From positions 1 through 31,968 of the IMG/VR virus record IMGVR_UViG_3300021440_000088: a DNA stretch of 31,968 nucleotides, one strand, 5' to 3'. This DNA comes from a virus. The notes beneath the pieces were generated by a model, which searched no databases, was not told the DNA's origin, and was given only the letters and a program-made list of their open reading frames with translations. The first letter of the stretch is position 1. Every line of letters begins with the position of its first letter. The translations under genes were made by a program, and so were the position numbers. This document shows positions 7,727-14,402 of this stretch, in pieces.

Positions 7727-8359
7727 ATGCCGCTGCAGCAACTCGTCGCGCCCTCCGTCGAGCCGGTGACGCTGGCCGAAGCCAAGAACCACCTGCGCGT
7801 CGACGCCGACCTGACGGCCGACGATGCCCTGATCACAATGCTGATCGCGGCCGCCCGAGCCTACGCCGAGACCTACACCGGCCGCAGCTTCATCACGCAG
7901 CAGTGGCGCCTGGTGCTCGACAGCTTCCCCGGGCCGTCGCTGCTCGGCGTGCCGTTCGGCGTGCCGTACACGCTGCCAGGGCATGCCATCCTGCTGGAGC
8001 GCGCGCCGGTGGCCAGCGTCGACGGCATCACCTACCTGGCGATGGAGGGCAGCACACAGACGCTAGCGCCGTCGCAGTACGTGGCCGACCTGACCGGTCC
8101 GATCCCTCGCATCACGCCGATCTTCGGCGCCATCTGGCCGATCCCGCTGCCGCAGATCGGCGCCGTGCGCGTCGACTTCACAGCCGGCTTCGGCGCAACG
8201 CCAGCTGACGTGCCCGAAGGCATCTGCCAGTGGATCCTGATGCGCGTGTCGACGCTCTACGGCAACCGCGAAGAGGTCGCCATCCTCGGCCGCGGCAAGG
8301 TCGACCCGCTGCCCTATGTCGACAGCCTGCTCGATCCGTACCGCATCGTGATGGTCTGA
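7727..8359 (+). CDS. Head-tail connector protein (gp6-like)
   Basis: A 210-residue protein opening with VEPVTLAEAKNHLRVDADLTADDALITMLI, the characteristic N-terminal helical block of HK97 gp6-type connector proteins. It then continues AARAYAETYTGRSFITQQW and a C-terminal beta-rich half ending in a helix (GICQWILMRVSTLYGNREEV). The oligomeric ring sits below the portal and bridges to the head-closure protein. It lies three bases upstream of the closure gene. Confidence 0.88.
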   Translation: MPLQQLVAPSVEPVTLAEAKNHLRVDADLTADDALITMLIAAARAYAETYTGRSFITQQWRLVLDSFPGPSLLGVPFGVPYTLPGHAILLERAPVASVDGITYLAMEGSTQTLAPSQYVADLTGPIPRITPIFGAIWPIPLPQIGAVRVDFTAGFGATPADVPEGICQWILMRVSTLYGNREEVAILGRGKVDPLPYVDSLLDPYRIVMV

Positions 8360-8362
8360 GCG

Positions 8363-8701
8363 ATGGCACACGCCCTGCGCAGCGGCGAGCTGAACCGCCG
8401 CATCACCATCCAGCAACGCGACAGCGAGCAGAACACGTTCGGCCAGCAGCTGCTGACCTGGAGCGATGTTCTGATCTGCTGGGCCGGCATCGAGCAGATG
8501 CAGGGCCGCGAACTGGAGATGGCGCAGGCCATCAATGCCGAAACCACACACCGCGTGACGATCCGCTACCGCGCGGGCATCACACCCGCCATGCGCGTGC
8601 TGTACCAGGGCCGCGTGCTGAACGTGCTGTCCGTGCTCGACATCGACACCGCCCACGTCGCGCTGCACCTCATGTGCAGCGGGGGCCTAAACCAGGGCTG
8701 A
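8363..8701 (+). CDS. Head closure / head-tail adaptor protein
   Basis: A 112-residue protein with the ELNRRITIQQ start and an all-beta pattern (RVTIRYRAGITPAMRVLYQGRVLNVLSV) typical of the SPP1 gp16 / phage head-tail joining family. It plugs the connector after DNA packaging and provides the tail docking surface. Order (connector then closure protein) is canonical. The two genes are separated by three bases. Confidence 0.88.
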   Translation: MAHALRSGELNRRITIQQRDSEQNTFGQQLLTWSDVLICWAGIEQMQGRELEMAQAINAETTHRVTIRYRAGITPAMRVLYQGRVLNVLSVLDIDTAHVALHLMCSGGLNQG

Positions 8702-8703
8702 CC

Positions 8704-9072
8704 ATGACGCTTTCCGCCACTGCACTGGCCGCAATCTCCGCGGCCGCCGCCACTGCTTCCGCCGTCGGGCTGTCGGGTGGAACTCTCGAGCTGCTCGACG
8801 CTGGCGGATCTGTCCTCGCTTCAGCCAGCCTCGGCGTGCCGACCGCCGCGGGCGCAGTCGTGACCATGAGCGGCTACCCGCGCACGGTCATCGCCACCGG
8901 CGGCACCATCGCCAGCGCCCGCTACCGCACCAGCGCAGCCGCGGACTGGAAGACGGGCATGTCCGTCGGCCTTCCGGGCAGCGGCGCGCAGGTGATTGTT
9001 TCCTCGCTGACCGTGACCGGCGGCCAGCCCGTGACGATCGCCAGCGCCACCCTGACGCACGCTGCGTCCTGA
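8704..9072 (+). CDS. Hypothetical beta-rich structural protein
   Basis: A 122-residue protein starting at the ATG two bases after the closure gene stop. The N-terminus is Ala-rich. The remainder alternates short beta-like segments (GTLELLDAGGSVLAS, RTVIATGGTIASARY). No known motif. It opens the Fn3/Ig cassette and ends one base before the hydrolase gene. A virion structural role is inferred only from position. Confidence 0.65.
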   Translation: MTLSATALAAISAAAATASAVGLSGGTLELLDAGGSVLASASLGVPTAAGAVVTMSGYPRTVIATGGTIASARYRTSAAADWKTGMSVGLPGSGAQVIVSSLTVTGGQPVTIASATLTHAAS

Positions 9073-9073
9073 C

Positions 9074-10543
9074 ATGCCCATCCCCACCACTGACAGCTAC
9101 GCCGCCGCCAGCGGCACCTCGGTGTATGCCGGACGAGCTGCGCCAGCGACTCCGCCGGTGCTCACGGGCGCGATCTCCGTGACGGCCATCACCTCGTCGG
9201 GGTACACCTTCAGCTGGCCGACGGCAACCGGAGCGACGAGCTACCAGACGAGCATCGACGGTGGCGCCTCCTGGACTGCCACTACCAGCACCGCGCGCAT
9301 CGTCACCGGGCGAACTGCCGGCGTGACAGACCAGTTGCGCGTGCGTGCCACCAACAGCGACGGCACCAGCGCCACACTGTCCGCCAACGCCACGCCGCAA
9401 GCCTCTGGGCCCTTCGCCTCGGTGACCTTCGACGGCGAAGCAGGCAGCGGCGCCGCGCCGCAAACCACCGCCGGACAGATCGTCGAATTCGCGCTGCACG
9501 GTAGCGGCGGGAACCCGCTTTACCAGGGCCTGAACTACACCGGCGTGCTGAATACCGACGAGGCATACCTCGGCAAAACCGGCTTCCGCTGGAACCTGAT
9601 GACGGGCTACAACGAGCCGGCGTACCCCGGCGGCCCGACAACCCGCGCGGTCGTGGTGCAAGCTGAAGACAGCCTGACCGGCCTCTGGGGGACCGGTCGA
9701 ATCGAAACGTTGTGGCTGGGCTGGATTGGAGGCGCGCACCCCGGCCTGATGGACCTCTGCACCGAACGGTGGCTCGACGGCGTGTATGCCTGGATGGATG
9801 CCAACCAGCCGAACTTCTCGACGACGCGTCGCATCCTGACCGGGGCCAGCATGGGCGGATGGGGCGGCATGACCTACGGTGCGCGCCGCCCCAACAAATT
9901 CGCCGCGCTGTACCTGCGCATGCCACGGTGGCAGTACTGCGAGCCGGCCGGCAACATCCAGCTCTTGACCTGGGGCGGTGGCATCCCGGCCATTCCCATC
10001 GGCTCTGCGCCGACGCTGACCAGCACCAGCGGTGGCGGCAGTTCAGCTGATCACCTGAACCTCATCACCTACGTGCAGGACACCAGCAAGCGCTTGCCGT
10101 GGATCGGTTGGACCATCGGTCGGCAAGACGGCTATGCCCCGTTCGCCGACCACGTTGCCGCGGTGGCTGCCATGCGAGCGGCCAAGCGCGGCTTCTGCTT
10201 CGCCTGGAACAACGGCATCCACGGCTCCGACCCGAGCATCAACGACATCTATGCCAGCTACCCGAAGGGCTTGTTCGAGTTGGGCCGGGGCTACCCGCTG
10301 TTCACCGACCACAGCCTCGATGCGGATCCGGCCGTCGATCTGGTGGGCGGCATCAACATCGGCCTGTCGTTCCGCAACGTGGTCGAGTCTTCGACGGGCT
10401 GGTCATGCCAGGTCACCAACATCAACGCGGCCTGCACCGTCAAGGTAGAGCCGATCAGCCAAGTGTTCACGACGCCCGTGGCAAAGCAGACCGTCTCCAT
10501 CCCATCCGCCGGCACCTGGGTGTCGGTCTCGTTCAGCGCCTAA
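9074..10543 (+). CDS. Fn3-alpha/beta-hydrolase virion-associated esterase-like protein
   Basis: A 489-residue two-part protein. Residues about 24-112 form a fibronectin type III-like domain (PPVLTGAISVTAI, YTFSWP, DQLRVRATNSDGTS). Residues about 120-420 resemble an alpha/beta-hydrolase: nucleophile elbow GASMGG with Ser259, an acidic residue in GRQDG (Asp352) and a His in GIHGSD (His383), in the canonical Ser-Asp-His order and spacing. A further beta domain closes the protein. No signal peptide is seen. Within a virion cassette it could de-acylate host surface polysaccharide or lipid during adsorption (inference). Substrate cannot be told from sequence. Confidence 0.72.
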   Translation: MPIPTTDSYAAASGTSVYAGRAAPATPPVLTGAISVTAITSSGYTFSWPTATGATSYQTSIDGGASWTATTSTARIVTGRTAGVTDQLRVRATNSDGTSATLSANATPQASGPFASVTFDGEAGSGAAPQTTAGQIVEFALHGSGGNPLYQGLNYTGVLNTDEAYLGKTGFRWNLMTGYNEPAYPGGPTTRAVVVQAEDSLTGLWGTGRIETLWLGWIGGAHPGLMDLCTERWLDGVYAWMDANQPNFSTTRRILTGASMGGWGGMTYGARRPNKFAALYLRMPRWQYCEPAGNIQLLTWGGGIPAIPIGSAPTLTSTSGGGSSADHLNLITYVQDTSKRLPWIGWTIGRQDGYAPFADHVAAVAAMRAAKRGFCFAWNNGIHGSDPSINDIYASYPKGLFELGRGYPLFTDHSLDADPAVDLVGGINIGLSFRNVVESSTGWSCQVTNINAACTVKVEPISQVFTTPVAKQTVSIPSAGTWVSVSFSA

Positions 10544-10555
10544 CAAGACACAAGC

Positions 10556-11989
10556 ATGGCCGTTCCATCACTCACCGGTTCGATCACGATCACGGGCCTG
10601 TCTTCCACGGGCTTCACGATGTCATGGCCGGCGGCGACCATCTCCAGTGGTTCGGTTCGCTACGACCTGTCGTTCAACGACGGCTTCAGCTATCCCGTCA
10701 CGAACCTGAATGCAACGACGTTCGTCTTTCCCAGCGGCACGCCGGGCGCCACCTACAACCTGATCGTCAAAGCCAAGGACTCATCGACGGGCGAATTCGC
10801 GGATCCTGGGTCGATGCTGCGGCTGTCGCAGACCCTGCCTGCCGCCGACACCACCCCGCCCACCCTGAGCAGCCCGACCGGCACCAGCACGGGCGCGACC
10901 ACCGCAACCGGCACCGTCAGCACCAATGAGGCGAACGGCACGCTGTACCGCCTGGTCTCGACCAACGCGACCGAGACCGCAGCGACGGTGAAAGCGGCCG
11001 CGCTGACGACAACGGTGACGGCGACTGGCACGCAATCGGTGAGCTTCAGCGGGCTGACCCCGAGCACCACCTACTACGCTCACTACGTCCACACCGATGC
11101 GGCGGGCAACGACTCCACGCGAGTGAGCAGCGCCAGCTTCACGACCAGCTCCAGCGCCGACACCACGCCACCGGTTCTGACCGGCGCCATCGCGGTCACC
11201 AACCTTGGCGGCAACAGCTTCACCGCCACGGTTCCGGTCGCCACCGATGCTGGTGGCGGCATCACCTACGACTACAGCACCGACGGGGGCACCACCTGGA
11301 GCGTGACAGGCTGGCCCACGCCGACCTACAACTTCACGGGCTTCGCGACAGGCGCCCTCGTGCAGCTGCGCGTGCGCGCCAAGGATGCGGCCGGCAACTA
11401 CAGCACGCCGGTGCTGTCGTCGGCAGTCCAACTGTCGACCAGCCCGGACGCGCCTGCCACCATCACGACGCATCCGCAGTCGGCCAGTGTTGCGCCCGGC
11501 GCCACGGTCACGCTGACCTACGGCGCCTCCGGCTCGCCGGTGCCAACGCGAACCCTGCAGCGCAGCACCAACGGTGGGGTGACCTGGACCACGGTGAGCG
11601 GTGCCGGCACCACGAGCTACACGACACCGGCGCTGGCCAGCGGTGACAGCGGCACTCGATACCGCCTGGTGGCGACGAACGAAATCGCCAGCACCCTCTA
11701 CACCGCCACATCAAACGAAGCAGTCATCACCGTGTCGGCTGGCACGGGCACGGCAACGGTCAACAACGTCAAGAATGGCAGTGGCACGCTGCTGACGACG
11801 ACGCTGCCAAACGTTGTCGTGCTGCGGCGCAGCGACCGGGCCGTGCTTCTCGCGCTGACCAACCAGGCGGTGACAGCGGGCGTGCTGACGCTGAACAACG
11901 CGGCGCTGCCGCCTGGTGCGGCATGCGTCGTGGTGGCCTTCAGCGACGACGGCACCTCCACCGGCGCGTGGCCTGCCACTGTGGTGTGA
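10556..11989 (+). CDS. Multi-domain Fn3/Ig-like virion protein
   Basis: A 477-residue Thr/Ser/Ala/Gly-rich protein made of about four Ig/Fn3-type beta sandwiches. These start near PSLTGSITITGL, DTTPPTLSSPTG, DTTPPVLTGAIAVT and APATITTHPQSASVAPG, followed by a small C-terminal beta domain (TVNNVKNGSGTLL). Strand signatures such as TYYAHYVHTDAAGN and VQLRVRAKDAAGNYS are typical. Such repeats decorate tailed-phage virions and are thought to bind cell-surface carbohydrate. The PPVLTGAI module is related to the Fn3 domain of the preceding gene, suggesting local domain duplication. No enzyme motif. Confidence 0.75.
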   Translation: MAVPSLTGSITITGLSSTGFTMSWPAATISSGSVRYDLSFNDGFSYPVTNLNATTFVFPSGTPGATYNLIVKAKDSSTGEFADPGSMLRLSQTLPAADTTPPTLSSPTGTSTGATTATGTVSTNEANGTLYRLVSTNATETAATVKAAALTTTVTATGTQSVSFSGLTPSTTYYAHYVHTDAAGNDSTRVSSASFTTSSSADTTPPVLTGAIAVTNLGGNSFTATVPVATDAGGGITYDYSTDGGTTWSVTGWPTPTYNFTGFATGALVQLRVRAKDAAGNYSTPVLSSAVQLSTSPDAPATITTHPQSASVAPGATVTLTYGASGSPVPTRTLQRSTNGGVTWTTVSGAGTTSYTTPALASGDSGTRYRLVATNEIASTLYTATSNEAVITVSAGTGTATVNNVKNGSGTLLTTTLPNVVVLRRSDRAVLLALTNQAVTAGVLTLNNAALPPGAACVVVAFSDDGTSTGAWPATVV

Positions 11990-11997
11990 CCTGACAC

Positions 11998-12774
11998 ATG
12001 AGCATGCTCTACGGCCCGCTGCCGGGCATCTCCAACCACTACGGCTCGCCGGGCTTGGGCATGCTCGGGTCGGTGATCCGTGGCACGACAGGCCCCGGCG
12101 CCGGGCCGAACGGCGCTGGCTACCTCTACAACGACTGGGAGCCCGGAGACGACGCCAAGGAATTTCGCGGGCTGATCGTCACGCCCCCGACCTCGGGAAC
12201 CTTCACGGCATACGAAGACGGCAGCTTCAGCTTCGTCGGCGCGCCGGATGGGGCATACAGCTTCACGTATCGCCTCTACGTCGATGGCAGCGATCTGGGC
12301 CTGACGACGGCGACCATCACCATCGGCGCCGGCAACCCTGTGCTGGCGGTCGCCATCGCGGGCGTGGCCGCGTTTACCGTCGCCGCCACGGGCAGCGTCG
12401 CTGCATCGAGCACCGCCGTCGGCTCCGTCCTCATCGAAGACCTGCAGTCGATCCTGGCCACGCTCAGCACAGGTGGGGCGTGGTACGGCGTGTGCACCGC
12501 CTCGCCTGTGCCAACGGAATACATCGTCTGGCTGCGCGTCGCCAGCTCGCCGAACGTCAGCCTGCTCGGGCAAAGCACCCTCCAAAACACCCGCGTCCAG
12601 ATCGACATCTACGCGTCCACCGTGGCTCGCGCGACGGCCATCGAACAGACCCTTGAAACGGCCATGGCCTACAGCGGCATCACCAACGTGCCGCTGAGCA
12701 GCCAGGACGGGTACGAGCCCGACACCCGGCTCTTCCGCGTGATCAAGGACTACAGCCTCTGGGCGAAGAACTGA
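11998..12774 (+). CDS. Ig-like domain fused to tail-terminator (DUF3168-like) protein
   Basis: A 258-residue protein. Residues 1-115 include an Ig-like module (FRGLIVTPPTSGTFTAYEDGSFSF, YSFTYRLYVDGSDLG). Residues about 140-258 match the general pattern of DUF3168 tail-completion proteins: a first helix (EDLQSILATL), EYIVWLRVASSP, TRVQIDIYASTVARATAIEQTLETAM, and a final RLFRVIKDYSLW strand. DUF3168 proteins are normally free-standing and about 120 residues, so the N-terminal domain is an addition. It probably caps the tail tube at the head end. The stop overlaps the next gene (TGATG). The tail-terminator call is by fold pattern. Confidence 0.68.
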   Translation: MSMLYGPLPGISNHYGSPGLGMLGSVIRGTTGPGAGPNGAGYLYNDWEPGDDAKEFRGLIVTPPTSGTFTAYEDGSFSFVGAPDGAYSFTYRLYVDGSDLGLTTATITIGAGNPVLAVAIAGVAAFTVAATGSVAASSTAVGSVLIEDLQSILATLSTGGAWYGVCTASPVPTEYIVWLRVASSPNVSLLGQSTLQNTRVQIDIYASTVARATAIEQTLETAMAYSGITNVPLSSQDGYEPDTRLFRVIKDYSLWAKN

Positions 12775-13271
12775 TGGCCGACAACGACTGGGGCAGCACC
12801 CGCATCGACGGGCTGCGCGAGCTGAACGAGGCGCTGAAGCAGCTGCCGGCCAACGTGGCGAAGAACGTGCTGCGCGGCGCCACGAATGCCGGCGCCGCGG
12901 TGATCCGCGCCGAAGCGAAGCAGCGCGCCCCGGTCTACACCGGCTCGCTGATCTCGACCGACCACCCGCCGCCGGGCACGCTCAAGAAGTCGATCGTGCA
13001 GCGCCAGGTGCGCGAGCTGTCGAGCCAGGTGCAGCAAACCATCCACATCGGCGTGCGCAGCGGCAAGGCGCTGAAGGACAAGGCCGGCCGCAGCCTGGAC
13101 GCCTACTACTGGCGCTTCGTCGAGTTCGGTACCAGCAAGATGGCCGCCCGCCCCTTCCTGCGCCCCGCCTTCGAGGCCAAGAAGCTGGCCGCCATCGAGG
13201 CGATCAAGAAATACATGGCCGAGCGCATCCCGCGCGAGGTCGAGAAGCTTCCCAAGGGCCCGCGCAAGTAG
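12774..13271 (+). CDS. HK97 gp10-like neck/tail-completion protein
   Basis: A 165-residue protein of the HK97-gp10 family: IDGLRELNEALKQLPANVAKNVLRGATNAGAAVIRAEAKQRAPVYTG is the characteristic N-terminal helix followed by the AP..TG turn, and YWRFVEFGTSKMAARPFLRPAFE is the conserved C-terminal block. It takes part in head-tail joining. It overlaps the preceding gene by one base. In many phages the gp10 gene precedes the DUF3168 gene; here the order is reversed. Confidence 0.9.
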   Translation: MADNDWGSTRIDGLRELNEALKQLPANVAKNVLRGATNAGAAVIRAEAKQRAPVYTGSLISTDHPPPGTLKKSIVQRQVRELSSQVQQTIHIGVRSGKALKDKAGRSLDAYYWRFVEFGTSKMAARPFLRPAFEAKKLAAIEAIKKYMAERIPREVEKLPKGPRK

Positions 13272-13997: not shown

Positions 13998-14402
13998 ATG
14001 AGCCGCACCCTGACCCGGGCCGACATCGAATCGGCCAACGACATCCGCACCGAAAGCGTCGACGTGCCCGAGTGGGGCGGCGCGGTGGCGGTGCGCCAGC
14101 TCACCGGTGCCGAGCGCGACGCCTTCGAGGCCGGCCTCGTGCGCACCACGCCCGACGGCAAACGCGAGGCCGACCTGACCAGCATGACCGCCAAGCTGGT
14201 GGCCGCCTGCCTGGTCGACGGCGTGACCGGCGACCGGCTGTTCTGCGACGCCGACGTCGAGCGCCTGGCCAACAAGAGCGCCACCGCGCTGCGCCGGGTG
14301 TTCGAGGCGGCGCAGCGGCTCAACGGCATGGGCGCCAAGGCTGTGGAGGACGTGGAAAAAAACTCCGCGACCGGCCAGAGCGGCAGTTCTACCTGCGCCT
14401 GA
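13998..14402 (+). CDS. Tail assembly chaperone (lambda gpG analogue)
   Basis: A 134-residue protein beginning MSRTLTRADIESANDIRTESVDVPEWGGAVAVRQLTGAERDAFE, the typical start of tail assembly chaperones in GC-rich siphoviruses. It binds the tape measure protein during tail assembly. Near its 3' end the codons GAA AAA AAC create a slippery A AAA AAC site (14357-14363), giving a longer -1 frameshift product. Without frameshifting translation ends at 14402. It is located between tube and tape measure genes as in lambda. Confidence 0.88.
   Translation: MSRTLTRADIESANDIRTESVDVPEWGGAVAVRQLTGAERDAFEAGLVRTTPDGKREADLTSMTAKLVAACLVDGVTGDRLFCDADVERLANKSATALRRVFEAAQRLNGMGAKAVEDVEKNSATGQSGSSTCA

Follow-up and report, generated by a model that had tools for sequence, protein, structure and literature searches.

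The window analysed here, the whole 31,968-base stretch of IMG/VR virus record IMGVR_UViG_3300021440_000088 (GC 0.687), carries virion genes for an HK97-type head and a lambda-type tail, as identified by Pfam and PHROG matches. Terminase, portal, S49 protease, capsid, adaptor and head-closure (Hc1) genes are followed by a set of cassette genes and then by gp10/Neck1, tape measure and J-like tip protein genes. A first-pass annotation, made from the sequence alone, had singled out one open reading frame in this block as an Fn3 domain fused to a predicted serine esterase, encoded between head-closure and tail genes. The frame is present as described (9074-10543, plus strand, ATG start, 489 aa; denoted P0001), and both Pfam and PHROG confirm its location between Hc1 and the tail terminator. 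The features of the region are as follows:

8363..8701, plus strand: head-closure protein Hc1, bordering the cassette on its left (Pfam Phage_HCP, 1.1e-26; phrog_25, 8.9e-27)
8704..9072, plus strand: element A, 122 aa, with a predicted helix-plus-beta, whisker/garland-like fold (AF2, VIA-align, held-out HMM, phrog_3758)
8710..12426, plus strand: inserted cassette, 3717 bp (alignment to the cassette-free locus L038)
9074..10543, plus strand: element B, P0001, predicted 489-aa alpha/beta-hydrolase (fold and triad conservation)
9092..9148, plus strand: N-terminal motif of slot-B proteins, residues 7-25 (held-out HMM)
9149..9394, plus strand: likely Fn3-like domain, residues about 26-107, within a variable linker (phmmer; identity to a P0002 domain)
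9407..10288, plus strand: predicted catalytic alpha/beta-hydrolase domain, residues 112-405 (fold match)
9848..9850, plus strand: codon of the predicted nucleophile Ser259 (S in 37/37)
10127..10129, plus strand: codon of Asp352 (D in 37/37)
10220..10222, plus strand: codon of His383 (H in 36/37)
10292..10540, plus strand: conserved C-terminal beta domain, residues 407-489 (strands with mostly high pLDDT; densest run of invariant columns)
10556..11989, plus strand: element C, P0002, Fn3/Ig-rich, with a C-terminal domain common to element C of other cassettes (held-out HMM)
11998..12340, plus strand: element D domain, N-terminal part of P0003 (held-out HMM, E 1.6e-33)
12424..12771, plus strand: tail terminator, C-terminal part of P0003 in the same ORF as D (Pfam gp17, 1.1e-8, covering residues 162-255; phrog_78, 9.4e-12)
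12774..13271, plus strand: HK97 gp10-like/Neck1 protein, right neighbour of the cassette (profile matches)

The extent of the cassette was defined by DNA alignment with L038, a locus that lacks it. L038 6584-7003 matches window positions 8283-8709, and L038 7004-7190 matches 12427-12613. The terminator region of L038 begins at the very next base after its Hc1 region, and this contiguity indicates that a 3,717-bp insert parted Hc1 from the terminator in the window phage. The ends of the insert are ambiguous by about 6 nt, as ATGACG occurs at both. The original start region of the terminator (ATGACG) now opens element A, while the terminator itself forms the C-terminal half of P0003. For element A we prefer the ATG at 8704 over the TTG at 8698, because it is this ATG that lines up with the start of the L038 terminator. 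Halomonas phage H4907, which ranked best by terminase, has Hc1, gp10 and terminator genes with no cassette between them. The enzyme gene belongs to a mobile cassette composed of A (a small beta protein), B (the enzyme), C (an Fn3/Ig or beta-helix protein) and D.

Element D is found in one ORF with the tail terminator both in the window and in L030, and in L016 it is fused to a head-tail adaptor (phrog_442, residues 146-346, E 1.7e-11). There is no start codon at the D/terminator domain boundary in the window, and an internal GTG upstream of this boundary may serve as a start. The boundary in L030 does contain an ATG, from which an independent terminator may be translated.

A predicted structure of P0001 with a fold search bore out the proposed serine hydrolase, as did residue conservation. 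The AlphaFold model was built from eight sequences (pLDDT 58.6 overall, pTM 0.66), the core being better defined than the Fn3 part. Ser259 of the GASMGG motif is placed between strand 248-258 and helix 260-271, Asp352 (GRQDG) after strand 343-349 and His383 (GIHGSD) after strand 374-379, the canonical order of a catalytic triad in a hydrolase fold. Residues 112-405 superpose on 6jzl_B with a VIA-align Z of 13.8 (rmsd 4.0 Å over 219 residues). All VIA-align rows listed for P0001 are alpha/beta-hydrolases, including esterase D/S-formylglutathione hydrolase, antigen 85 and ferulic-acid esterase folds at Z of about 13-14, and Foldseek concurs. The three residues named by the first-pass annotation are conserved in an alignment of 37 relatives, the single exception being a gap at His383 in L029, a contig that ends at that point. 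An HGS motif is also retained, with H142 and S144 present in 35/37 sequences and gaps in the remaining two. H413, considered as a catalytic residue since it is invariant in the first three sequences, was rejected because it is histidine in only 13/37. P0001 is almost certainly a serine alpha/beta-hydrolase on the strength of the modelled fold and the triad.

Pfam scores for P0001 were 16.2 bits for Esterase (PF00756, cut-off 22) and 16.2 bits for Hydrolase_4 (PF12146, cut-off 27), there was no PHROG match, and neither the S-formylglutathione hydrolase model TIGR02821 nor the PHA depolymerase model NF050058 matched. The best relative tested on NF050058, L049, scored 36.8 bits against a cut-off of 150, and no Pfam or NCBIfam model reached its cut-off with any of the family members tested. 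Esterase D/S-formylglutathione hydrolase and ferulic-acid esterase share the fold and triad order of P0001. Their sequence identity to it is about 11-18%, and P0001 differs in having an additional C-terminal beta domain.

Relatives of the enzyme were sought in viral contigs, in annotated phage records and in genomes. Successive viral-contig scans returned 2, 8 and then 14 loci, the last set including the earlier phages again with longer flanks. Among 50,697 annotated phage records, tblastn with the esterase as query found none that matched. A first genome scan yielded no relatives and a second yielded 23 loci: two close relatives with cassette elements (Massilia soli and Pelomonas sp. V22) and 21 distant ones in MAGs at 27-33% identity, mostly from Planctomycetota and Myxococcota/Deltaproteobacteria. 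The tree built from 37 rows has one branch, with 100/100 support, that splits 15 phage from 22 cellular rows, two of the latter coming from a single locus, L053. For the comparisons below we counted 17 phage/prophage esterase loci (the window, L016-L029, L048 and L069). L019 and L027 are near-copies that represent the same phage, and L017 is 99.5% identical to L029 over 1,072 bases; these near-duplicates leave about 15 independent cases among the 17. The distant proteins of L049-L068 and L070 are secreted-looking Planctomycetota/Myxococcota proteins that have the triad and the C-terminal region in common with the phage enzyme, and those tested gave sub-threshold NCBIfam matches only.

The region preceding the hydrolase domain is more variable. 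Residues of about 26-107 are likely to form an Fn3 domain, as the first-pass annotation proposed: this part of P0001 matches the designed FN3con protein 4u3h (phmmer E 4.5e-4) and is 45% identical to a domain of its neighbour P0002, itself just below the cut-off for Pfam fn3 (E 3.9e-5). The assignment is likely rather than proven because Pfam fn3 gives no row for P0001 itself and most of the Fn3-like part has a pLDDT below 50 in the AlphaFold model. As a defining feature of the enzyme, the Fn3 domain did not stand, since it is absent from the other phage and prophage copies compared; 141 residues separate the start from the HGSG motif in the window protein, compared with 34-96 in 13 other copies. 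A short N-terminal motif is common to the slot-B proteins instead. An HMM built from 13 other N-termini, with the window and L073 held out, matches the window protein with an E of 8.6e-8 and the non-esterase slot-B protein of L073 with an E of 2e-6, and shows weak resemblance to the slot-B proteins of L077 (E 0.021) and L030 (E 0.48). It is possible that this motif acts as a docking peptide.

The esterase is followed by D in 16 of the 17 loci, the exception being L029, whose contig ends inside the esterase. Element C proteins have a C-terminal domain in common, and a profile constructed without the window matches P0002 at an E of 7.4e-7. Element A could be confirmed upstream of the esterase in 6/17 loci (the window, L016, L020, L021, L024 and L069). 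A profile of A built without the window recovers the window protein at an E of 0.0016, and window A matches phrog_3758 at an E of 7e-4. A 127-aa gene preceding the esterase in L004/L005 (L022/L023) was rejected as element A, with a held-out HMM E of 0.26 to 1. Three small genes lie between the esterase and element C in L018 (9164-10348), one of them P-loop kinase-like, one sulfotransferase-like by eye and the third without assignment; these are possibly cargo or a modification module inside the cassette. Element A of L030 (512-1207) has an N-terminal stretch that by eye resembles a signal peptide, which is unexpected for a structural phage protein. Rheinheimera phage Barba19A (L013 9734-13191) has C-, D- and A-like genes, annotated as hypothetical, after its fibre genes and without an esterase. 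D-like matches occur in 115 Rheinheimera phage records, and no virion proteomics for the Barba phages was found in the accessible part of the publication checked.

Comparison between loci reveals both transfer of the cassette and exchange within it. L022 and L023 are 96% identical over 6.3 kb spanning the cassette, whereas their downstream genes are unlike, with Terminase_3 and an SU10-type portal in one case and a P22-type portal and coat in the other. The matching cassette ahead of unlike genes indicates movement between unrelated phages. In L073 elements A, C and D and the neck genes are all retained, its A and neck genes being 66-77% identical to those of L020 at the DNA level, and yet it encodes a different B protein with the same N-terminal motif. 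Slot B is therefore exchangeable. The slot-B protein of L077 carries a GHSLVAGE stretch that suggested an SGNH hydrolase by eye; this candidate was rejected, as PF13472 gave no match and PDB sequences did not confirm it.

A PcRGLX/PL26-like domain is fused to or located beside the esterase in L019, L026, L020 and L048, exceeding the Pfam cut-off in 3/4. In L019 (the same as L006) and L026 it precedes the motif and esterase in one continuous ORF; for L020 and L048 a neighbouring gene encodes it. This polysaccharide-lyase-like partner provides the best hint of an esterified polysaccharide as the substrate. Judging from these sequence associations, a glycan ester is a reasonably probable substrate for P0001, and we infer that deacetylation would help the lyase.

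Two alternatives to an active virion enzyme carry little weight. A catalytically inactive hydrolase fold serving as a lectin would be in keeping with virion proteins that sometimes retain an enzyme fold for binding only, and is very unlikely indeed given that Ser, Asp and His, together with the HGS motif, are kept throughout 37 divergent sequences. The hydrolase might also be a cargo (moron) product that stays out of the virion and acts in the host cell during infection or lysogeny, for instance to modify that cell's own surface. Its distant cellular relatives look secreted, with signal-like N-terminal stretches by eye. Such a role is distinctly improbable: the phage protein has no signal-like N-terminus by eye, it is constantly linked to D (16/17 loci) and to a C protein with a common C-terminal domain, and lyase-like modules are fused to the esterase. 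P0001 is likely a virion protein.

Gene order alone does not establish a position in the virion. Element A was modelled with an AF2 pLDDT of 76. It superposes on 9c39_K with a Z of 9.4 (2.4 Å, 100 of 108 residues, 8% sequence identity), on 9mt4_K with a Z of 9.1 and on 9rkv_A with a Z of 8.4, compared with a Z of 4.2 for the best unrelated row. The two best matches come from neck/connector maps. Chain 9c39_K corresponds by sequence to Sf14 gp31, described as a neck whisker protein detected by mass spectrometry (PMC11821841). PDB sequence searches with window A alone, and likewise with element D, gave only chance matches; element A of Vibrio phage CKB-S1 does match 9rkv_A by sequence (E 5e-7), and 44nx_B is a second PDB relative of element A. 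With regard to gene position, in 10/17 loci the cassette has a capsid, adaptor, Hc1, Neck1 or terminator gene no more than two genes away on one or both sides (the window, L016, L017, L018, L020, L025, L026, L029, L048 and L069), and these loci fall into two slots, one between capsid and adaptor and the other between Hc1 and terminator. In L022/L023 the cassette lies upstream of the terminase or portal, in L019 (as in L027) between tail-fibre J-like and endolysin genes, and the remaining 3/17 (L021, L024 and L028) have no assigned position. The D fusions, the ten loci beside head/neck genes and the fold of A together point to the neck, which we moderately favour over the tail tip or capsid.

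The main competing explanation is that the same cassette forms an accessory fibre or garland mounted on the tail tip or baseplate, its place among neck genes reflecting only the tolerance of that part of the late operon to insertions. Chain 9rkv_A, matched by A of CKB-S1 in sequence and by A of the window in fold, belongs to the tail-fibre map of Agrobacterium phage 7-7-1, in which garland proteins are reported to contact the fibres (PMC12796354). In the Vibrio phages CKB-S1 and VP16T, element A has baseplate genes as its neighbours, the L019 cassette sits in a fibre/lysis region, and the C-, D- and A-like genes of Barba19A follow fibre genes. We nevertheless consider a tail-tip location rather unlikely, as D is joined to a tail terminator in two loci and to a head-tail adaptor in another, the ten loci beside head/neck genes occupy two different slots, and the best two fold matches of A are to neck/connector maps. 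Since the A fold occurs in a neck whisker as well as in a tail-fibre map, and A genes also occur near baseplate genes, A is best seen as an appendage holder that some phages use at the neck and others at the baseplate.

Decoration of the capsid, with the cassette products coating or projecting from it in the manner of Hoc-type Ig proteins, is improbable. The cassette follows the major capsid gene and precedes any adaptor gene in L016, L048 and L069, it follows the capsid gene in L029, and Ig-like domains are found on capsids (PMC11821841). However, each of the three covalent fusions of D involves a neck ring protein and none a capsid protein. The first-pass suspicion of a neck or capsid enzyme is sustained in part: it gains independent support from the D fusions and the whisker fold of A, and it is weakened by the L019 locus and by the A homologues near baseplate genes and in a tail-fibre map.

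Returning to the neck, A, with its whisker/garland fold, and D, which in some loci is covalently continuous with a neck ring protein, would fix the structure to the junction of head and tail. Slot B would carry an exchangeable effector, in this case the alpha/beta-hydrolase joined to the N-terminal motif via the Fn3 spacer, and element C would contribute Ig/Fn3 or beta-helix adhesive modules. On contact with the host, C could hold the surface polysaccharide while B strips ester-linked groups, acetyl most likely, so as to loosen the coat or expose it to the lyase, and final binding would be left to the ordinary tail tip. The cassette probably builds side arms that help the virus through the host surface coat. 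Whether P0001 is a virion-borne serine carboxyl esterase carried on a phage neck appendage is, taken as a whole, an evenly balanced question. A more general proposal, which we advance tentatively and with some doubt, is that of a mobile neck-arm system, in which a four-gene cassette inserts between head/neck genes of unrelated tailed phages, anchors on the downstream neck ring protein by fusion or docking, and presents one interchangeable effector, catalytic or adhesive, behind a common docking peptide. The D fusions may instead have arisen by chance, through insertion or loss of a stop codon, and be tolerated by the virion.

One close parallel is provided by the neck passage structures (NPS) of lactococcal siphophages, neck appendages with swappable C-terminal carbohydrate modules that include beta-helix and carbohydrate-esterase-type CBM folds (PMC6669499). 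A neck location for the cassette products, as in NPS, would agree with gene position and the D fusions. According to the accessible text, NPS is a single protein with a BppU-like N-terminus and coiled coil, whereas the cassette encodes four separate proteins; it also differs in its complete catalytic triad and in having close relatives in Pseudomonadota. The Shigella phage Sf14 whiskers (gp30/gp31; PMC11821841) share the element A fold through gp31. Sf14 has a contractile tail, and the accessible text mentions no enzyme on its whiskers. In phage 7-7-1 the garland (9RKV; PMC12796354) includes a sequence and fold relative of element A in 9rkv_A, which we infer to be the garland protein from its length and copy number, and it surrounds the baseplate fibres, unlike the neck mounting proposed here.

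Virion deacetylases and esterases with proposed or demonstrated activity on surface polysaccharides are described for phages Possum (PMC9569702) and Moo19/B2 (PMC11654681). Those enzymes are tail fibres or spikes, in contrast to a cassette encoded among neck genes. A virion GDSL esterase, not resolved in the maps, is reported in the accessible part of the Peru-2 preprint, which makes no mention of a neck. Within the accessible text of the literature searched, we found no description of an alpha/beta-hydrolase at a phage neck.

Virion enzymes attacking bacterial surface polymers have mostly been studied at the tail tip. What is new here is a full catalytic triad within a transferable, multi-gene cassette that resides among neck genes and has an interchangeable slot. 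If the enzyme is carried at the neck, this would give phages a second site for enzymes that attack the host coat; these would be gained and traded as a single package, separately from the receptor-binding proteins that determine host range. Should the mobile neck-arm proposal hold, such enzymes would be swapped at the neck independently of the receptor-binding proteins of the tail tip. The analysis further defines a family of enzymes whose triad is invariant and whose members occur both in phages and among secreted-looking Planctomycetota/Myxococcota proteins.

Further downstream in the window, positions 13998-14402 encode tail assembly chaperone G, with a slippery heptamer AAAAAAC at 14357. 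The -1 frame runs to 14716 and contains a Minor tail protein T-like domain, and the combination of this heptamer with a T-like domain in the -1 frame indicates a classic programmed frameshift.
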